The position numbers and the translations under genes were made by a program. The notes beneath the pieces were generated by a model that was not told the origin of the DNA, made no database searches, and saw only the letters and a program-made list of their open reading frames with translations. From positions 372,001 to 436,000 of the forward strand of contig NZ_PDDM01000001.1 of NCBI RefSeq assembly GCF_002914585.1: a DNA stretch of 64,000 nucleotides. The letters are read 5' to 3'. Position 1 is the first letter of the stretch. Each line of letters begins with the position of its first letter. This document shows positions 8,821 through 40,716 of this stretch, piece by piece. Source of the stretch: Pseudanabaena sp. BC1403 (GTDB lineage: Bacteria > Cyanobacteriota > Cyanobacteriia > Pseudanabaenales > Pseudanabaenaceae).

Positions 8821-9084
8821 ATGGAGCTTATGGAAACCCCTTACATCTACTACATTCCGATCTATCCTGACGATGATAATTGCGAAACCCTAATGCATTT
8901 ATTTATAGGTCAGCCAGGTTTAGATACAGAAATTTTGAGCTTACTTGAAATACTTGACAATCGTGAACATGAGGGCGAAGCTGTTGACTATGTCCGCGAG
9001 CTTGAAGATAAATGTCATCTAAAGCGTGTTTCAGTGAGGTTTTTACCTCGAAAACGCGATCGCGCAGTGCCAATTATGACTTAA
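8821..9084 (+). CDS. Small conserved hypothetical protein
   Basis: 87 residues; an alternative ATG three codons later (METPYIYYIPIYP) is equally likely. Acidic middle (PDDDNCETL, EHEGEAVDYVRELED) and a basic C-terminal end (RFLPRKRDRA). No membrane segment or signal peptide. I do not recognise a family. It is backed by a clean terminator that starts at its stop codon and by coding-like composition, so it is probably real. Function unknown. Confidence 0.6.
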   Translation: MELMETPYIYYIPIYPDDDNCETLMHLFIGQPGLDTEILSLLEILDNREHEGEAVDYVRELEDKCHLKRVSVRFLPRKRDRAVPIMT

Positions 9085-30149: not shown

Positions 30150-30199
30150 ATAATGAACATCTTGTAGCGCGGCTTCGCCGCGCTACAAGATGTTCATTA
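30150..30199 (-). terminator. Perfect palindrome containing the recG stop codon
   Basis: TAATGAACATCTTGTAGCGC and GGC, TTC loop, then the exact complement; 23-bp stem. The recG TAA (30197-30199) is the outermost part of the right arm. Confidence 0.75.
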
Positions 30200-32650
30200 C
30201 GTGAAAATTGCGCCGCCTTGCAAACGTTGATAATGCATCTCAAATTCAGCTTTTAACTCAGGGAAATGTTCCAAGGTGGCATCTTTTTTGATAATCCGTT
30301 CGGCAGCTTCACGGGCAATTTGGAAAATCTCCTGACGCGCTGCTTCATCTGGCAAACGATCCTCAATCGAGAAACCCGCATGTCCTGATTGCTCTGTTCC
30401 TTCGTCTTTACCTTTACCGCGCATCTGAAAATCTCGTTCAGCGATAAAAAAACCATCCTGCGATTGTTCGAGAACTTGTAAACGCTCTTGAGAAGTTTGT
30501 GATTTAGAACCGCTTAATAATAGGCAATAGGACTGCGCTGCACCACGTCCAACTCTGCCTCGTAATTGGTGAAGCTGAGCAAGCCCAAAGCGATCGGCAT
30601 GTTCGATCAGCATCACCGATGCATTAGGAATATCTACACCCACTTCGATCACCGTTGTCGCCACTAGGATTTGGGTTTCGCCTCTGCGGAAAGTATTAAT
30701 CGCTTCATCTTTTTCGGCGGAAGACATTTGACCGTGAAGTAAGCCAATTTGGAAGTTAGGGAAAACTACATTTTGCAAATGTTCGCGTTCTTGGGTTGCA
30801 GCCTTAATATCTTCCATTTTCTCGGACTCTTCTACTAGAGGAAAGACAATATATGCTTGGCGATCTTGAGCAATTTCACGACGAATTAAATCGAAAGCAT
30901 CTTTGCGCTGAGAAGGTTTTAGCAGAACGGTTTGAATTGGTTTGCGTCCTGGAGGAAGTTCATCGATAATGCTAACTTCGATTTCGGAATTAGTTAGATA
31001 GAGAGTGCGTGGAATTGGTGTGGCGGTCATGATTAATACATGCGGATCATTCCCTTTTTGCAAAAGTCGCGATCGCTGATCTCTGCCAAAACGATGTTGC
31101 TCATCGATTACCGCTAGTCCTAGCCGCGCAAAGTTGACACCATCTTGAATTAAGGCGTGAGTACCAATTACCAAGGGCAATTCGCCTGTTTCCAATTGCC
31201 GCAAAGTTTCGCGCCGTTTTGCTGTTTTTGTGGAGCCAGTTAAAATTTCTACGGGCAAATTTAGCTGCATAAACCACTCAACAATCTTTCGATAATGCTG
31301 CTCCGTAAGAACTTCGGTCGGAGCCATTAGCGCGGTTTGATAACCTGCCTCGATCGCAGTTAACAGTGCATACACTGCCACAATGGTTTTACCTGAGCCG
31401 ACATCGCCTTGGACGAGGCGATTCATCGGCGTTTGACCTTGAAGGTCAGCACGAATTTCGGCAACAACTCGCTTTTGAGCATTAGTTAATTCAAAGGGAA
31501 GTAGTTTTTCTAATTGGGCGATCGCTTGGCTTTGGGGGACAAACTGAATTGCTTTTTGCTGATGACGGCGGTAGAGGGAAACAAGGCGACGATAGAAATA
31601 TTTATCGAAGGTGAGGCGAATTACGGCTTGCTCTAGGGTTTCGCTAGTGTCGGGATAATGTACTTGCGCGATCGCATCGGGCAATCGCATCATTTTATAA
31701 TCATTCAAAAAGCGATCGGGCATCGGATCGTGGATTTGAGAAGCTGCGGGCAAACATTGAGCAACAAGGCGACGAATTGCTTCTGGGGAAATTCCTTCTG
31801 TAAGTGGATAAACTGGTACGACCCGTCCGACGGTTTTGGACTGAATTGTGTCTTGCGTATGTTCAAGAACTTCCACTTCATAATTCTCTAAGGTCAAACC
31901 ATATTTGCTCTGTTTGACTACTCCCGAAGCCGCAACTGTACAGCCTTGTGGATAGAGCTTTTTTTGCGATTCTTGCCAGCCTCGATTGGCGTAGCGTTTG
32001 CCTGTCCAGAAGCGACTAAGTTTAATCTGCCCTGTATAGTCGCGCAGAATAATTTCGACAATCGTGAGGTTAGTATTTTTTGGGCTAGTAAAACATCCAA
32101 ATCTTTTAATCGTGCCGATGACTGTAACCGTATCGCCATCTTTAAGGTCACGGATGGGGATTTGCCTCGCATAGTCAATATGATCGCGAGGATAGTAATT
32201 AAGCACGTCGCGCACTGTATGCAAATCGAGCAGCTTAAATTTGGTAGCCATAAATGAACCAACGCCTTCTACGCTTTTTAATTCCGTATCGGGTGTTATT
32301 TTCTTGGTGGCTTTGGGTTCAGTCGCTGCGATCGCTTCGGTCTTAGGTTTCTTTGTTTTTGGGGCGGCGCTAGTTTGTGCGATTTCACGACGACGTACTT
32401 CGTAGAGCAGGCGACGGGTTTCTGCAACTAAATGTTGTCTGCGGGATAGGGTTAAATCGCTGTATTGGGCATATTGATTGGCGAGGGTGTTGGCTTGAAG
32501 GCGATCGCTCATTTCCCAGTCTTCTGGGATCTCTTTTAAGCTCACATTTAAAAAATCTGCAAACAAAAATTGCTTTCCCTGTAAGTTGGAAAAGCCTTTC
32601 TCTGCCTCGATGCTCAAGGCTTGTTGTAAACGGTTTATATCAAGCGGCAC
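30197..32650 (-). CDS. recG: ATP-dependent DNA helicase RecG
   Basis: 817 residues from a GTG start. Longer than the E. coli protein because of a cyanobacterial N-terminal extension of about 120 residues (Lys/Thr/Ala linker). Wedge/OB domain at about 160-260, then SF2 motifs: GDVGSGKT (I), MAPTEVLTEQHY, DEQHRFGRDQR (II), TATPIPRTL (III), VATTVIEVGVDIPNA, HQLRGRVGRG (VI), and the RecG C-terminal RDFQMRGKGKDEGTEQSG. Remodels stalled replication forks and branch-migrates Holliday junctions. Confidence 0.96.
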   Translation of the reverse strand: MPLDINRLQQALSIEAEKGFSNLQGKQFLFADFLNVSLKEIPEDWEMSDRLQANTLANQYAQYSDLTLSRRQHLVAETRRLLYEVRRREIAQTSAAPKTKKPKTEAIAATEPKATKKITPDTELKSVEGVGSFMATKFKLLDLHTVRDVLNYYPRDHIDYARQIPIRDLKDGDTVTVIGTIKRFGCFTSPKNTNLTIVEIILRDYTGQIKLSRFWTGKRYANRGWQESQKKLYPQGCTVAASGVVKQSKYGLTLENYEVEVLEHTQDTIQSKTVGRVVPVYPLTEGISPEAIRRLVAQCLPAASQIHDPMPDRFLNDYKMMRLPDAIAQVHYPDTSETLEQAVIRLTFDKYFYRRLVSLYRRHQQKAIQFVPQSQAIAQLEKLLPFELTNAQKRVVAEIRADLQGQTPMNRLVQGDVGSGKTIVAVYALLTAIEAGYQTALMAPTEVLTEQHYRKIVEWFMQLNLPVEILTGSTKTAKRRETLRQLETGELPLVIGTHALIQDGVNFARLGLAVIDEQHRFGRDQRSRLLQKGNDPHVLIMTATPIPRTLYLTNSEIEVSIIDELPPGRKPIQTVLLKPSQRKDAFDLIRREIAQDRQAYIVFPLVEESEKMEDIKAATQEREHLQNVVFPNFQIGLLHGQMSSAEKDEAINTFRRGETQILVATTVIEVGVDIPNASVMLIEHADRFGLAQLHQLRGRVGRGAAQSYCLLLSGSKSQTSQERLQVLEQSQDGFFIAERDFQMRGKGKDEGTEQSGHAGFSIEDRLPDEAARQEIFQIAREAAERIIKKDATLEHFPELKAEFEMHYQRLQGGAIFT

Positions 32651-32720: not shown

Positions 32721-33143
32721 CTATATATTCATCTGATGCTGATTCAAAAAATCAATTGGAGTCAGAATCGGAATATTTGCAAATTCTTTAAGTACCAATA
32801 GATCGAGATCCCCAGAAACAATCAACATGGCTTTTGCTGCGATCGCTGTGCCTAAAATTACGGCATCCTCAGGATCGCGTAATTGAGGAACATTGACTGA
32901 AACGGGGACACAGTTTTCTGAAAGTTGTTGAGCTATATTCAGCAAATCATCAGCGGTGATGTCTAGCGATCTCATTCTTGCCTGAAATTTTGCCCGAACT
33001 AAAACTTCTGCCAACTCACTCAAAATTGGCTCTGAGATAAAGATTGTTATTTGTCCTGCTTTTGCCAGATTTACGATTTGTCTGGGACTTCCACCCCATA
33101 GCAATCCAGAAATCCAAACGTTGACATCTAAAACTAGGCGCAT
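32721..33143 (-). CDS. PIN-domain protein, putative toxin
   Basis: 140 residues. PIN nuclease acidic residues in RLVLDVNVWISGLLWGG, ILSELAEVL, LRDPEDAVILGTAI and SGDLDLLVL. This is the COG1569-like PIN family, the predicted RNase half of a toxin-antitoxin pair. The start overlaps the upstream antitoxin-like gene by 10 bp. Its target is unknown. Confidence 0.87.
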   Translation of the reverse strand: MRLVLDVNVWISGLLWGGSPRQIVNLAKAGQITIFISEPILSELAEVLVRAKFQARMRSLDITADDLLNIAQQLSENCVPVSVNVPQLRDPEDAVILGTAIAAKAMLIVSGDLDLLVLKEFANIPILTPIDFLNQHQMNI

Positions 33144-33415
33144 TCACTTCTAGCTCTACGAGATTTTCTTACATCTTTTACGATGTCACTGATTTCTTGA
33201 AGTGATGGCTCTTCTGGATCAATTCCTGCTGCTTCAATACGTTGTGATAAATCATCCCATGTCAAAGACTGCGGTATTCTTTTGAAAATTATCTCGTTAT
33301 TGGTCACAAGGACTTCATATCTAGATAATGGCTCCATTTGAGACTGTAACTCTGGCGGGATCTCCAATTTGCCATCTGCTGACACACTAACCAAGATACC
33401 TGTTTGAGGAGTCAT
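33134..33415 (-). CDS. AbrB-like antitoxin partner of PIN protein
   Basis: 93 residues. The first half (ILVSVSADGKLEIPPELQSQ) is a beta-strand swapped-hairpin-like opening as in AbrB/MazE antitoxins; the second half is helical, with a basic tail RKSRRARS. Immediate upstream neighbour of, and overlapping, the PIN gene. Probable repressor and neutraliser of the pair (inference). Confidence 0.7.
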   Translation of the reverse strand: MTPQTGILVSVSADGKLEIPPELQSQMEPLSRYEVLVTNNEIIFKRIPQSLTWDDLSQRIEAAGIDPEEPSLQEISDIVKDVRKSRRARSECA

Positions 33416-33556: not shown

Positions 33557-35047
33557 TCAAGCAATTTTCAACAGTGCATTTTTAAAATCATCACCTTGCA
33601 AGTCTGCGATTTCATATTGAGTTTCTATTCCCCGAAAGTCTCTTAGAGTATCGGGAACATCGCTAATATCTATCGGCTGCATAAATTCGCTACCAATTAC
33701 AGCGCTTAGTCTTTTACTGTCGTGATAGAAGTATTCTTGCAGTAGGGGAATGATGCGGTGATACCAAGTGAATCGGAGGTCTTCAAGGGTTTCGATATTC
33801 ATGAAGTAACTATGCCCAATTTGGTAATCGCGTCCGATGAGGAGGGTAATGCGTTTGTTGAGTTGGGTGAGTAGGCGATCGCAATGTATGCCATCAATAA
33901 CTATCTCTTTGAGCAGTTCGGGATCGGGTTTGAGTTCAATAAATGTAAACCTACGGCGGAGGGCGATGTCTAGCAGTGCGATCGAGCGATCGCTTGTGTT
34001 CATTGTTCCTAATATATATAGATTTTTCGGTACACCAAATTCTTCTTGTGAGTAAGGCAAGGTAACTTTTAATTCGTTACGCGCTCCTATCCTTTTATCA
34101 TCTTCAATCAGCGTAATTAATTCACCAAAAACTTTAGAAATATTTGCTCTGTTGATTTCGTCAATAATAATCAGATACTTATTATCTGGATCTAATTCTG
34201 CTTGTCTACAAATTCGTTTAAATACTCCATCAACAACCCTATAACTAACTTCTCCTAACTCATCAGTTATAGGTTTAATTCCCTCCACAAATTCTTCATA
34301 AGCAAATGATTGGTGAAATGTAACAAACCTTATATATTTTAATATATCTGCAACAATTCCTGTAGATTCCTTGAGGTTTTGGAGTTGTTCAGATAAATTT
34401 TCTTCAATATACTCTCTACCCAAATCAGTTAAGAACCAATCTCCATCTTTTGTCTTCTCAAATAAATATGGAAGCTGCCTTTTTGAGATTCCATACTTTA
34501 CTGTTTCAACAGAAATATCTGTATGTATTTGCAGCATTGCATGGATCATATTACTCAATTTCTGAGTCTTAGTTGTCTTCCAAAAAGTATCGATCAGATC
34601 ATCTTTAACGAGTTCAGTAACTTTGAATAATTTACCTTTTTTATAATTGACATACATTGCAAATGCGATCGCTTCATGCCATGTTAAACCTTTTACTGAA
34701 TCTTGTCTTCGTTGCTCTGGAGTTATGGGAGATTGTAATTGTTTGGATAAAAACAATTTTGCGAATCGACTAACTGTATAGGTTTTGCCCGTGCCTGGTG
34801 ATCCATAAATTATAGTGTTGTTAGTTCTATTAGTGAGATCTAATAATTTTTTGATAGTTAAAGTTTTTTGTATTGAAGCCTGACGTTTAGCTATATCTTG
34901 AAAACGTTTGGTTTCCAATTTAGAATCAGGAATACTCATCCAATCATCATTTTCGATACTGTCTAACAATTCCTGCTCATCTTTATCTAAATTCATGACG
35001 GTATTACTTTTTTCTGTAGCCATACTATCAAAATCTAAATTTTGCAT
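33557..35047 (-). CDS. McrB-like AAA+ GTPase/ATPase
   Basis: 496 residues. Walker A GSPGTGKT at about 80, Walker [20 protein letters not shown] at about 290, McrB-type sensor motif [21 protein letters not shown] at about 350 (key residues MNTSDRS). Between Walker A and B is a helical insert of about 130 residues rich in a winged-helix-like pattern ([21 protein letters not shown]). There is no room for the N-terminal methylcytosine-recognition domain of E. coli McrB; only about 65 residues precede the AAA module. In the McrBC family this subunit hydrolyses GTP and moves DNA. AGGAAG precedes the ATG. Confidence 0.88.
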
Positions 35048-35082
35048 AATTACTAACTTCCTAAATATCTTTTTGTCGTTTT

Positions 35083-35508
35083 TTAATTGGGAGGATGTAG
35101 ATTCGCAAAAACTAAAACACGTCTCAGATTGACAACGCTTTGTCTGTTTAGAATTAAAGCCTCTATCGTTGCACGTCCGACAGAAGTCTTGCCAATCATC
35201 AACGTTAAGTCCTCATTCCAGCCAAAATGCTCTGCCCAAACTTGCTGACGAGGATGAAATAAACTGACTTGCATTCCAGACTGAGGATCGATTGCCATAG
35301 TTTTCGTATGCTTGTGACTATTACAACCAAAACAACTCCAAGCAAGATTTTCTAAAATAGTTTCGCCACCAGCCTGTCGTGGCTTAATATGTTCAACCGT
35401 AAAACTCTGTGTGCCAATATTTTCAGGGCATCGACAATATTCACAATAGTTATTTGCTCGGATTGCGACAAATCGCCGTATCGCCGTTGGAATTCTTTCA
35501 GACGGCAT
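35083..35508 (-). CDS. HNH endonuclease
   Basis: 141 residues. CEYCRCP and CFGCN are zinc-binding pairs; [12 protein letters not shown] and the [14 protein letters not shown] segment are the HNH motif. Such proteins nick or cleave DNA and occur widely in cyanobacteria behind a small partner gene, as here (11-bp overlap with the gene at 35498-35902). Its place between mcrC and mcrB suggests it was inserted into, or is part of, the restriction operon. Confidence 0.85.
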
Positions 35509-35902
35509 GACTGATTCTCATTGGAGAAGAAAATTCTTTGATTAGGCTCAATGGCTCAACTTTTCGGATTTGCGCTAATTGCAAAATCGCCGATGCCCTT
35601 TCAGCATCTTCATTTTCTACACGCGAGACAAAATCCAACAACTCTTGGTGCTCTGACTCAGTGATATCACCACTCTCATTTTGTTCGCGTAAATAATCAA
35701 GCCTAGTTTGCTCATTTGGCAAAAGTCGCCGATCAATAACTCGCAATAACGCCTCTTCAGACTTAGATGCTGGTAGCGTTTGAGCTTGGCTAGTTTCCCT
35801 AAGCAAAGAATTCAACAAATCAATCACTTCACGAAGCGACTCTTCGGGAAGTTGCTCAACTAACTGCATAACTCTTTGGCGATCGCCTTTTGATATTGGC
35901 AT
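35498..35902 (-). CDS. Small acidic protein, partner of HNH endonuclease
   Basis: 134 residues from ATG 35902; AAGGAG lies eight bases upstream, and the gene begins one base after the mcrC stop. Helical and acidic: KGDRQRVMQLVEQLPEESLREV, then NEQTRLDYLREQNESGDITE. I do not know a named family; the pair with HNH recurs in cyanobacteria in my experience, so an antitoxin or immunity role is plausible but unproven. Confidence 0.6.
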   Translation of the reverse strand: MPISKGDRQRVMQLVEQLPEESLREVIDLLNSLLRETSQAQTLPASKSEEALLRVIDRRLLPNEQTRLDYLREQNESGDITESEHQELLDFVSRVENEDAERASAILQLAQIRKVEPLSLIKEFSSPMRISHAV

Positions 35903-35903
35903 T

Positions 35904-37196
35904 TCATACTCCTTGACTATCAGCAAAAAGCCGTTTCAATCTTTCTACTAGCTTATCACGCTCCTCCTGCTTGCTCAAATCACCACAAAGATCAATCGTT
36001 GCTGCCGTAATCTTTCCACCATCGATCGCAAACTCAGCTTCCAGTTCCGACATCCCCACAACTTGCGGATAAATCAGCAACACATGCGAACAATCGTAGC
36101 GTTGAGCATATGCATACATTTGATAAAAATCTGCCTGTGAAACACCCAACTTGCGATCGCCTTCCTTCAGCCGCTTATATTTCGTATCGATAATCAAAGG
36201 GAATTTGACCTTTTGACGAATCACCAAATCGGGCTTCAGTTGAAATACTGGATGTTGATTACTTGTCTTAGCCAAATAGCGCACTGCGCCCATTGACTGT
36301 GACAGCAATTCACAATCCTGTAACTCTGTGGGCAAAATTTCATGGCGATGGCGATCGATAAAGCTGATCACAAACTCCTCAAACAGCTTATTCATATCCA
36401 AAGCAAAGGCAAAAGTCTGGAAATTGCCACTGGATAATTGCAAGCTCTCATTTTCTAGAAATAAACGCGCCAGATTTAAAAGCGGCTCAAAGCGTTGATT
36501 TAAGCGCGTAATTGGAATTAATTGCAAATCTTCAACATTCACCTTTGGCAACAAAGTCACCTCTTCCATCCATTGCTGCAACTCATGCAACATTTGCCGA
36601 TTATGGAAATTGCGAGTTAACTGATACAGCCGCTCTACCACATAGCGCAAAGCCCGATTGAGTTGATTGTCTGCCGTAAATTCATCAAATGTGACCGAGA
36701 ATAAATGCTTGCGTTCAGGACGACGAAACTGTTCGGTTAAGTTCCATTTTCCCTTTAACACAGGCAAAGTATCGCTCACTGATTGATAATTCCGAAATGC
36801 GCCTCTTTGCCACTCCTCCAAGAGACTAATCGCGAATAATCTAGTCAAAATCTCAAACCAATCTAGATCCTGCTGTAATAAAGAAGCCAATGAATATTGC
36901 TTGACATTTAACTGGTTGGTATATTCCAGCATATACAGCAAATTTTGCACCGCTTCCTGATTCTGGACTTCAGGATCGGTTGATCGATACATTTTTGGCA
37001 GAACTTGTACTGTGCGATCGCCTAAACGAAATACTCCCACATATTGCCTCGCCTTTAGCTCCCGTTTGCCATTGTTGATCACAGTTTCCAGTGGGCAATC
37101 TCCGATCACTGTCCCCAAATAGGCGATCGCCTCTTGCTCTTGATCAGTCCAATCAAAGCCACAGCTTAACTCATACTCAAACAATGCTAATTTCAC
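35904..37196 (-). CDS. McrC family protein
   Basis: 430 residues from GTG. N-terminal OB-like part (residues about 20-100, VGVFRLGDRTVQVLPKMYR), helical middle, C-terminal PD-(D/E)xK nuclease with FQLKPDLVIRQ and IIDTKYKRL at about 325-345. In McrBC systems McrC is the nuclease subunit. Here mcrC is first and mcrB last, the reverse of the usual order, with two genes between. The restriction specificity is unknown. Confidence 0.88.
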   Translation of the reverse strand: MKLALFEYELSCGFDWTDQEQEAIAYLGTVIGDCPLETVINNGKRELKARQYVGVFRLGDRTVQVLPKMYRSTDPEVQNQEAVQNLLYMLEYTNQLNVKQYSLASLLQQDLDWFEILTRLFAISLLEEWQRGAFRNYQSVSDTLPVLKGKWNLTEQFRRPERKHLFSVTFDEFTADNQLNRALRYVVERLYQLTRNFHNRQMLHELQQWMEEVTLLPKVNVEDLQLIPITRLNQRFEPLLNLARLFLENESLQLSSGNFQTFAFALDMNKLFEEFVISFIDRHRHEILPTELQDCELLSQSMGAVRYLAKTSNQHPVFQLKPDLVIRQKVKFPLIIDTKYKRLKEGDRKLGVSQADFYQMYAYAQRYDCSHVLLIYPQVVGMSELEAEFAIDGGKITAATIDLCGDLSKQEERDKLVERLKRLFADSQGV

Positions 37197-37341: not shown

Positions 37342-37653
37342 ATGCCAAAAAAGATTCGAGAACTAAAAAGTATGTTGCTGAAGGCAGGATTTACCAGCGA
37401 ATCGGCAAGAGGAATAAAAACTATACAATACACAATTCTCATTCAATGGTCTGATGAAGATAATTGCTTTGTTGTCTTTTTACCCGAATTTACGAATGTG
37501 ATGCAACCTTGTACCCATGGGAATACTTACCTAGAAGCAGTTCAAAATGCTCAAGAAGTGATTGAACTGCTAGTAGAAACTGCCATAGAAAAAGGCGAAT
37601 CATTGCCCAAACGCCAAAAGTTTCAAGCAATTCCAGTTTTACAAGCTGCATAA
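37342..37653 (+). CDS. HicA-HicB in-frame fusion remnant, HicB-type antitoxin
   Basis: 103 residues. Residues 1-24 (MPKKIRELKSMLLKAGFTSE) look like the start of a HicA mRNA interferase. From about residue 27 (IQYTILIQWSDEDNCFVVFL, PEFTN) it is a HicB antitoxin with the RNase-H-like opening, then NTYLEAVQNAQEVIELLVE and a basic-tailed end. In normal loci hicA precedes hicB. The HicA dsRBD-like remainder with its active-site His is missing, so a deletion seems to have joined the two reading frames, leaving an antitoxin without toxin. Could also be a HicB with a chance N-terminus. Confidence 0.7.
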   Translation: MPKKIRELKSMLLKAGFTSESARGIKTIQYTILIQWSDEDNCFVVFLPEFTNVMQPCTHGNTYLEAVQNAQEVIELLVETAIEKGESLPKRQKFQAIPVLQAA

Positions 37654-38283: not shown

Positions 38284-40716
38284 TTATGCGATCGCTAGCA
38301 TCGTTTTCAGTACAGAATCAGGATTAAGACTGATTGAGTCAATGCCTTGCTCGACAAGGAACTTCGCAAATTCAGGATAATCACTGGGCGCTTGACCACA
38401 GATGCCGATCTTGCGACCGTTTGCCTTGGCTCGTTGAATGATCGTGCGAATCATTGATTTCACAGCTTCGTTGCGCTCGTCGAAGATATGCGCGACTAGA
38501 GACGAGTCACGATCTAAGCCGAGCGTCAACTGCGTGAGATCATTAGAGCCAATCGAGAAGCCATCGAATACCTGCGAGAACTCATCCGCCAAGATGACAT
38601 TACTGGGGATTTCGCACATCACATAGACTTCGAGCCCATTCTCGCCACGCTTCAAGCCATGCTTTGCCATCTCGGCAAGCACCTTGCGACCTTCCTCAGG
38701 CGTGCGACAGAAAGGAATCATCGGAATCACATTGGTCAAGCCCATATCATCACGGACACGCTTCAGGGCTTGGCATTCCAAGCCATAGGCTTCGCGATAT
38801 TTCGGATCGTAGTAGCGCGATGCACCACGCCAGCCGATCATCGGATTTTCTTCTACAGGTTCAAAGGCTCGACCGCCGAGCAGATTGGCATATTCATTGC
38901 TCTTGAAGTCAGACATCCTCACTACGACAGGTTTGGGATAAAATGCGGCTGCGATCGTGCCAACACCGTGGGCAAGTTTATCGACAAAGAAATCTGACTT
39001 GTTTTCATACCTTGCTGTCAATTGCGAAATTTCCCATTTCGCAGCCTTGTCTTCAAGGGTGTCAAAGTTCATCAATGCAAGGGGATGCGCCTTGATGTGA
39101 TTGGCGATGATAAATTCCATTCTCGCCAAGCCCACGCCATCGCAGGGAATCGAAGACAAGCCAAAAGCTTCTTCAGGATTGCCAACATTCATCAAAATCT
39201 TGGTGGAAAGCTTGGGCAAATTATCAAGAGAAGTCTCGACAACTTCAAAGGGAACTAGACCTTCGTAAACCTTGCCTTCTTCGCCTCCAGCGCAGGAAAT
39301 CGTCACTTCTTGCCCTGTCTTGATCACGCCTGTAGCATTGCCACAACCAACGATCGCAGGAATACCCATTTCTCGCGCAATAATCGCCGCATGGCAGGTA
39401 CGTCCACCTTGGTTGGTGACGATCGCACTAGCCTTTTTCATGATTGGTTCCCAGTCAGGGTCGGTCTTGTTAGTGACTAGCACTTGCCCCGCTTGGAAAT
39501 CTTCAATGTGATGCACTTCTAGAATCACATTCGCCTTGCCTTGACCAATCATCTCACCGACAGCACGACCTGTAATCAGGACATCACTGGAACCATTCAG
39601 TTTGTAATTCTTGAGAATGTTGCCAACCTTCTGTGATTGCACTGTTTCAGGACGAGCTTGGACGATGAATAATTCGCCAGTTCTGCCATCTTTTGCCCAT
39701 TCAATATCCATTGGTGAAAGCTTGCCACGTACTTCCGAATAGTGATCTTCGATGATACAAGCCCATTCTGCGAGTTTGAGAATCTCATCGTCGGTAATTG
39801 CAAACTTGACGCGCTCGGAAACTGGAACAGGAATATTTTTGGTCAGCTTACCGCCGCCAATGTCATAGACCATCTTGATTTCCTTTGTGCCAAGGCGTTT
39901 TTCGAGAATCGGACGGAAGCCTTGTTTGAGTGTGGGTTTGAATACAAAATACTCATCGGGATTGACAGCACCCTGCACCACGTTTTCACCTAAACCATAG
40001 GCGGCAGTAATCAGTGCTGCATTTTTAAAGCCTGTTTCGGTGTCAATGGAGAACATTACGCCAGAGGAGGCGAGATCAGAACGCACCATTTTTTGCACAC
40101 CGACGGAGAGAGCGATATCGAAATGGTCAAAGCCATTGATGGTGCGATAGGAAATCGCGCGATCGGTGAATAGTGAGGCAAAGCAGCGATGGCAAGCATC
40201 CACGACTTCGTTAGCGCCATAGACATTGAGATAGGTTTCCTGTTGTCCAGCGAAACTGGCATCGGGCAAATCTTCGGCTGTGGCGCTAGAACGCACGGCA
40301 ACATCGGCTTCTTTACCACAGGACAATTCGCAGTCGCATAGTTTTTGGTAGGACATAGCGATCGCTATTTGCAAATCCTCAGGAAATGGCGTACTGAGAA
40401 CCAAAGCACGAGCCATACGACCGCGATCGCGCAGGTTATTCATATCCTCAATATCAAGATCGGCAAAGAGTTCGCGCAATTTTGTTTCCAAGCCAGCCTT
40501 CTCAATGAAATAACGGAAAGCATAGGCAGTGGTGGCAAATCCATTAGGAACATTCACTCCCTTGGGTTGAAGCTGGCGAATCATTTCCCCCAGCGAAGCA
40601 TTTTTCCCACCCACAAAGGGAATGTCAGCAATTCCCACTTCTTCAAACCAAAGTATTAATGCTTGTTCTTTAGAAACAGTTCTCGATAGTTCTGAGGCAA
40701 AAGTTGAGCTAGTCAT
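38284..40716 (-). CDS. ppsA: Phosphoenolpyruvate synthase
   Basis: 810 residues. N-terminal ATP-grasp domain (VGGKNASLGEMIRQL, SATAEDLPDASFAGQQETYLN), the swivelling phosphohistidine domain with GGRTCHAAIIAREMGIPA (His near residue 445) and a C-terminal PEP/pyruvate-binding barrel (GRAFEPVEENPMIGWRG, GSNDLTQL, CGQAPSDYP). Converts pyruvate and ATP to PEP, AMP and phosphate, the gluconeogenic direction. AGGGAG precedes the ATG. Divergent from the flavodiiron gene. Confidence 0.96.
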   Translation of the reverse strand: MTSSTFASELSRTVSKEQALILWFEEVGIADIPFVGGKNASLGEMIRQLQPKGVNVPNGFATTAYAFRYFIEKAGLETKLRELFADLDIEDMNNLRDRGRMARALVLSTPFPEDLQIAIAMSYQKLCDCELSCGKEADVAVRSSATAEDLPDASFAGQQETYLNVYGANEVVDACHRCFASLFTDRAISYRTINGFDHFDIALSVGVQKMVRSDLASSGVMFSIDTETGFKNAALITAAYGLGENVVQGAVNPDEYFVFKPTLKQGFRPILEKRLGTKEIKMVYDIGGGKLTKNIPVPVSERVKFAITDDEILKLAEWACIIEDHYSEVRGKLSPMDIEWAKDGRTGELFIVQARPETVQSQKVGNILKNYKLNGSSDVLITGRAVGEMIGQGKANVILEVHHIEDFQAGQVLVTNKTDPDWEPIMKKASAIVTNQGGRTCHAAIIAREMGIPAIVGCGNATGVIKTGQEVTISCAGGEEGKVYEGLVPFEVVETSLDNLPKLSTKILMNVGNPEEAFGLSSIPCDGVGLARMEFIIANHIKAHPLALMNFDTLEDKAAKWEISQLTARYENKSDFFVDKLAHGVGTIAAAFYPKPVVVRMSDFKSNEYANLLGGRAFEPVEENPMIGWRGASRYYDPKYREAYGLECQALKRVRDDMGLTNVIPMIPFCRTPEEGRKVLAEMAKHGLKRGENGLEVYVMCEIPSNVILADEFSQVFDGFSIGSNDLTQLTLGLDRDSSLVAHIFDERNEAVKSMIRTIIQRAKANGRKIGICGQAPSDYPEFAKFLVEQGIDSISLNPDSVLKTMLAIA

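Follow-up and report, generated by a model that had tools for sequence, protein, structure and literature searches.

McrBC restriction systems and cyanobacterial toxin-antitoxin (TA) modules are the closest described relatives of the locus considered here. Inserts in the McrB GTPase, with a likely role in specificity, are already known, and the CoCoNuTs are defined by an NxD motif and have coiled coils (PMC11090510). As far as the available parts of two accounts go, the McrB-S of Escherichia coli shows no specific DNA binding, draws off McrC and modulates restriction (PMC3874153, PMC12707154). On the TA side, the accessible portions of two further papers list DUF2281 antitoxins with PIN toxins in Synechocystis (PMC4963859) and describe one DUF2281 protein that neutralises VapC (PMC12654330). 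Here we analyse a 64,000-nt stretch of the Pseudanabaena sp. BC1403 genome (contig NZ_PDDM01000001.1, positions 372,001 to 436,000; genome G000), called "the window" throughout, whose list of open reading frames (ORFs) includes four minus-strand genes at 33557-37196, in the order mcrC, SP, HNH and mcrB. We think it probable that this is an mcrC-first McrBC operon whose mcrC-mcrB junction received TA genes in Pseudanabaena, and that SP, coding for a 134-residue protein, and HNH form one putative antitoxin/toxin module that entered a single time.

The first gene of the operon, mcrC (35904..37196; 430 aa, GTG start), encodes a DUF2357 plus PD-(D/E)xK nuclease subunit (PF10117, E 2.5e-72). It is followed by SP (35498..35902; 134 aa from its ATG), the proposed antitoxin of the HNH gene, then by HNH (35083..35508), a nuclease of 141 aa (PF01844, E 9.8e-12) and the proposed toxin of the pair, and finally by mcrB (33557..35047; 496 aa), the gene of an AAA+ GTPase subunit of the NxxD type (AAA_5, E 4.8e-17), all on the minus strand. 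On the DNA, the SP ATG stands 1 nt past the mcrC stop (+1) with AAGGAG immediately upstream, the SP and HNH frames share 11 nt (-11), and 35 nt separate HNH from mcrB (+35), which confirms the arrangement with overlap and short gaps reported by the first-pass annotation. A TTG placed 24 nt upstream of the ATG is a possible alternative start for SP. The NCBIfam McrB and McrC models both match (E 1.3e-46 and 4e-34, respectively), under those models' cut-offs, and the best solved relatives of the two subunits are from Thermococcus gammatolerans (McrB E 3.5e-71, McrC E 3.1e-26), with McrC aligning to its counterpart through KPD...DxK, which reads KPD...DTK in the window. The HNH motif includes EH...N...CFGCNSHK, and the catalytic motifs of McrC, McrB and HNH are all intact. 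The nearest named record, from Pseudanabaena sp. lw0831, has an mcrC 94% identical to that of the window.

Gene order was compared across 78 loci returned by a McrC search of the genome contigs; the collection search is based on short peptide patterns and is no census. Both genes are present in 69 loci, the nine lacking one being dropped from the order count. The order is mcrC-mcrB in all 13 of the nearest loci (L030-L042: Pseudanabaena, other cyanobacteria and Chloroflexi) and mcrB-mcrC in all 56 of the remaining, more distant ones, of which 53 were ordered by script and three (L048, L083 and L091, where a second AAA gene lies downstream) were assigned from a McrB match directly upstream of mcrC. 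Thus the mcrC-first order that had been called reversed is real, and it marks this clade instead of being unusual within it. In the eight loci of the clade from outside Pseudanabaena (L035-L042), mcrC and mcrB are separated by -8 to +19 nt with no ORF between them, and the 53 script-called mcrB-mcrC loci likewise have no ORF in gaps of -70 to +114 nt. In the five Pseudanabaena loci (L030-L034) the gap is at least 1.16 kb and contains two or three ORFs, the L033 gap being measured up to a short antitoxin-like ORF, with the real mcrB start at 8844.

The contents of this junction were mapped in nine Pseudanabaena mcr loci with seventeen query segments, G008 being excluded as its mcrC is cut by the contig end. 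In the window, the junction holds SP, HNH and an antitoxin-like stump fused to mcrB, and in G006 it holds DUF29, HEPN, MNT, SP, HNH and ParDE ahead of mcrB. G019 and G022 have SP fused to a DUF433-like antitoxin tail, together with reversed VapB and VapC, the VapC of G022 being split by a transposase gene. SP and reversed VapC/VapB are found in G009 and G003; HEPN, MNT, VapB with a VapC stub and a BrnT-linked antitoxin-like gene in G001; VapB, a DUF433-like antitoxin and DUF5615 in G011; and VapB, an antitoxin-antitoxin fusion and a frameshifted mcrB in G021. SP is therefore in six of the nine loci and HNH in two, those of the window and G006. Overall there are 24 antitoxin-type genes (six SP, seven VapB-like, five DUF433-like including one stub, three BrnT-linked, two MNT and one ParD) and nine intact partners (two HNH, three VapC, one DUF5615, two HEPN and one ParE). 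Fifteen of the 24, stubs included, have no intact partner, and toxin-type genes without an antitoxin number zero. No toxin was found for the BrnT-linked gene in the three mapped loci that have it, one of its copies being the window stump. Pfam backs the PIN, ParE, NTase_sub_bind/HepT, nucleotidyltransferase, DUF5615 and transposase assignments, with ParD just under its cut-off and the DUF433-like antitoxin matching below its own.

SP and HNH are also found together away from mcr genes. HNH relatives occur in all 26 genomes of the genus, at 2-15 matches each (11 in the window genome itself), and 16 of the top 17, the window's among them, are preceded by a gene of the SP family at nearly constant spacing. 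At 18 of 24 further, more distant HNH paralogue loci another small gene is upstream; the N-termini differ, one of them being RelB-like below the cut-off (E 0.001), but visual comparison finds a helical motif of similar kind at the C-termini. Judged from sequence, this build of variable N-terminus and helical C-terminal motif is antitoxin-like, and SP itself is all helix in its AlphaFold2 (AF2) model (predicted local distance difference test, pLDDT, 77). SP matches are present in 64 of the 291 genomes of the class, and 30 SP places were returned as loci: ten with a whole HNH downstream, four with a broken one and 16 with none, so SP can exist alone. Among plasmid records, HNH is in 34 and SP in three, each time adjacent to HNH. 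SP and HNH are two small overlapping genes held together at many independent places, and the pair has the apparent anatomy of a TA module, its toxicity and neutralisation being putative. The conjugative Nostoc edaphicum plasmid pNe_2 has the pair (L213, 2597-3438) between a reverse transcriptase gene and cas1-cas2, directly in front of the latter.

Since the pair looks like a TA module and is mostly found elsewhere, its insertion into the operon is likelier than its being a third part of the restriction machine. The first-pass annotation had offered three readings of the pair, as an insertion, as an addiction module protecting the locus, or as a real third nuclease of the system, and insertion of a TA-like pair is the best of them. 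It had proposed looking at whether relatives carry mcrC and mcrB side by side and the pair at unrelated loci, and both parts came out for insertion: the two genes are adjacent in all eight of the nearest loci outside the genus, and the pair stands at unrelated places in other genomes. The four-gene order is not conserved, the SP-HNH pair being no constant component of it. The addiction-module reading is partly supported, by the TA-like anatomy. Protection of the locus is conjectural, as losses of the mcr locus are frequent in Pseudanabaena, with full-length mcrC present in eight of 26 genomes. Short 5' mcrC stumps are left in others, at L204 (G018), L208 (G024), L209 (G023) and L210 (G002). 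In L204 and L208, mcrC similarity ends at the HIP1 octamer GCGATCGC (window 37123), a position at which L209 and L210 differ; with 95 HIP1 sites in the window, a dense distribution, stump ends at HIP1 may be due to chance.

The window McrB aligns without an N-terminal domain of its relatives' kind, a point absent from the first-pass annotation. In relatives this domain has about 220 residues, modelled with pLDDT mostly 74-95 and followed by a disordered linker (AF2, L030 relative). The four outgroup McrBs that were aligned (L039-L042) have it, as do five of the 26 genus genomes, always at mcr loci (G003 at 33%), which is also five of the nine mapped loci; the McrBs of G001 and G021 have other N-termini and that of G009 has none. 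No match to the domain was found anywhere in the window genome, and no other McrB of this family was found there. The domain has no Pfam match, and a fold search with the L030 McrB model returned McrB first, then other AAA+ or dynein-type chains, with the N-terminal domain unmatched among the matches listed. The 5' part of the window mcrB is instead the antitoxin-like stump (34864..34995, minus strand), fused to the GTPase: window 34993-34864 and an antitoxin-like gene in L033 (8500-8629) share 91% DNA identity, the 5' segment has 85% DNA identity to L201 6053-6193, and the stump matches a 101-residue antitoxin-like query at 78% over 49 residues, similarity to the L030 mcrB resuming at 34809. 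By these matches, the first ~60 residues of McrB appear to derive from an antitoxin-like gene. In G021, mcrB (L201 6363-7770) is broken into two frames and differs from the other loci in its N-terminus.

Further along, an insert between Walker A and Walker B (34361..34732, minus strand), presumably winged-helix-like, is 97% identical to the same L030 segment, where the AF2 model of the L030 relative has a helix-strand pattern; no match in the fold search with the L030 McrB model singled it out. L032 (8474-10972) and L039 (5739-8423) carry an EVE domain inside the GTPase between Walker A and Walker B, and L042 has no insert. The window insert may or may not bind DNA. The missing domain raises the possibility that the operon as a whole is in decay, a relic whose McrB no longer restricts and whose genes serve no present function. 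There are mcr remnants in several sister genomes, and E. coli McrB-S, which is also without the domain, is described in the available parts of its literature as not binding DNA specifically and as drawing off McrC (PMC3874153, PMC12707154). Against decay, all four frames are open with their catalytic motifs, mcrC and mcrB both have a ratio of nonsynonymous to synonymous substitution rates (dN/dS) of about 0.1 in comparison with L030, a figure that in good part reflects the time before the deletion, and the insert could still recognise DNA. We hold a relic to be doubtful, while taking it seriously.

The history of the junction can be followed in trees, albeit from short alignments. The six mcr-locus SPs group together, apart from free SPs, with an ultrafast bootstrap (UFBoot) of 93, the five SPs adjoining mcrC group at UFBoot 98, and the HNHs of the window and G006 group at UFBoot 87. 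Both the SP and the HNH trees fit a single entry followed by HNH loss. Between the window and L030, identity per 150 nt is 86-94% along mcrC and 80-82% in SP, while L030 and L034 are less alike in most of mcrC (76-86%) than in SP (92-94%). Synonymous rates (dS) follow suit, at 0.51 (window-L030) and 0.14 (L030-L034) for SP against 0.28 and 0.82, respectively, for mcrC. These opposite patterns in mcrC and SP indicate that the junction was exchanged by homologous recombination. Repeated independent insertions at one site are not favoured, a VapB-like gene being common to seven of the nine loci and the six mcr SPs forming one group; independent arrivals of HEPN/MNT or ParDE are possible.

Measured against the window, dN/dS is 0.08-0.14 for mcrC, 0.13-0.22 for SP and 0.09-0.19 for HNH. 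The SP values show that the protein is constrained, perhaps less where HNH is gone. This purifying selection, and the retention of SP right behind mcrC in five loci, four of them without HNH, are also what one would see if SP, with or without HNH, had been recruited as a regulator or modulator of McrBC that sets mcrC expression, say, or binds McrC, HNH being expendable. Three Pseudanabaena mcr loci do without SP, though, the SP pair of L030-L031 has a dN/dS of 0.53, a sign of relaxation, and two loci have a truncated SP joined to a second antitoxin-like gene, as decay predicts; we consider such a co-option improbable.

Receipt of TA genes at the junction remains our preferred explanation. A canonical (NxxD-type) McrBC type IV operon of the mcrC-first clade would have received them between mcrC and mcrB in Pseudanabaena, with the SP-HNH module entering the mcr locus once in the genus. 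SP, which is translated first and in tight coupling, would act as the antitoxin by binding and silencing HNH, a putative nuclease toxin. Deletion and homologous recombination would since have rearranged the junction, with SP retained and HNH lost in most copies. In the window, the antitoxin-like stump would have come to stand in place of the McrB N-terminal domain, leaving a McrB that resembles E. coli McrB-S but carries an internal insert. Several results weigh against this explanation. The match of SP to DUF2281 is weak and under the cut-off (E 0.0067), reaching E <= 0.1 in six of 25 SP family members, and a fold search with the SP model gave no match at E <= 0.001 and no antitoxin fold. Four of the 16 SP places without a downstream HNH are mcr loci, and in pairwise comparisons among HNH-less mcr loci SP has a dN/dS of 0.12-0.53, which could mean a role of its own. 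The G006 case is incomplete, its mcrC not being on that contig, and the VapB-like and BrnT-linked labels come from gene position, with no Pfam match above cut-off.

A more elaborate reading treats the junction as an exchange slot, where antitoxins coupled to mcrC translation are selected to gate the McrC nuclease and McrB recognition domains are swapped or dropped downstream, so that the SP-HNH of the window would partly replace the lost domain; we find this very improbable. Even less credence can be given to a working third nuclease, recruited with SP by McrC or McrB to supply recognition or cleavage after the domain loss: the tight coupling to mcrC kept in five loci (AAGGAGTRTGAAATG), an intact HNH under purifying selection (dN/dS 0.19 against G006) and the coincidence of pair and domain loss in the window speak for it, but it is rejected as the leading explanation because HNH is missing from seven of the nine Pseudanabaena mcr loci, and it further meets an HNH gene in none of the 78 loci of the McrC contig search, a G006 with both HNH and a full McrB, a G009 whose McrB lacks the domain with no HNH there, and a pair that is common away from mcr genes.

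The operon is flanked by genes that we take, from their sequences, to be recG (30197-32650) and a ppsA-like gene (38284-40716). G+C content is 35.3% in mcrB, 41.8-42.8% in HNH, SP and mcrC, 45.4% in recG and 48.1% in ppsA. At window 37342-37653 (plus strand) a HicB-type antitoxin is in frame with the first ~24 codons of a HicA-like gene, hicA and hicB being separate genes in G008 (L202 5421-5633 and 5185-5415); from its sequence, this HicB-HicA remnant appears to be another instance of an antitoxin kept and a toxin lost. Immediately downstream of mcrB, at window 32721-33415 (minus strand), lies a PIN-family toxin gene (TIGR00305, above cut-off), preceded by an antitoxin-sized gene.

The greater interest of the locus lies in its McrB without the domain and in the many antitoxins at its junction. 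These features point to a defence-system operon as a landing and decay site for TA genes, in which antitoxins may outlast toxins and pieces of antitoxins may become fused to other proteins, a restriction GTPase included. A naturally domain-less McrB also bears on whether the GTPase-nuclease core is sufficient for restriction. The SP-like gene and its HNH nuclease are a widespread and apparently little-described cyanobacterial pair, and a candidate TA family. Full-text searches listed no paper that deals with TA genes inside an mcrC-mcrB junction or with this HNH pair, which is no proof of absence since most subscription journals were outside their coverage.

Among known systems, the CoCoNuT branch resembles the locus in having McrBC with extra nucleases in the operon (PMC11090510), and is ruled out because the window McrB motif, MNTSD, is NxxD and not NxD. 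The window HNH has a domain related to that of Septu PtuB (PADLOC PtuB, E 4.8e-14); unlike Septu, the pair has no PtuA-type ATPase gene, and the NCBIfam PtuB score is 23.8 against a cut-off of 150 bits. Septu is also ruled out, the neighbours of HNH being SP, mcrC and mcrB, and the free pairs L213 and L214 having no listed ATPase partner. Like cyanobacterial type II TA modules with DUF2281-type antitoxins, SP-HNH has an antitoxin-sized gene first, an overlapping putative toxin gene and many copies per genome. It differs in that the partner of SP is an HNH nuclease and SP scores below the DUF2281 cut-off; the term "HNH" occurs zero times in the main texts of the two papers as available (PMC4963859, PMC12654330). 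Like the McrBC of E. coli K-12 and T. gammatolerans, the window has Walker A/B and NxxD in McrB and PD-(D/E)xK in McrC. In contrast to these, mcrC comes first, and in Pseudanabaena two to four further genes lie between it and mcrB. Unlike McrBC with a recognition domain, the window McrB has no separate N-terminal domain, so that membership of McrBC is claimed for the GTPase-nuclease pair and not for a working modification-dependent enzyme. The window McrB is thus like E. coli McrB-S in being the GTPase part without an N-terminal domain, as described in the available parts of that work (PMC3874153, PMC12707154); according to the same portions McrB-S is made beside full-length McrB by internal initiation, whereas the window McrB is the only one of its family found in the genome and carries an internal insert.

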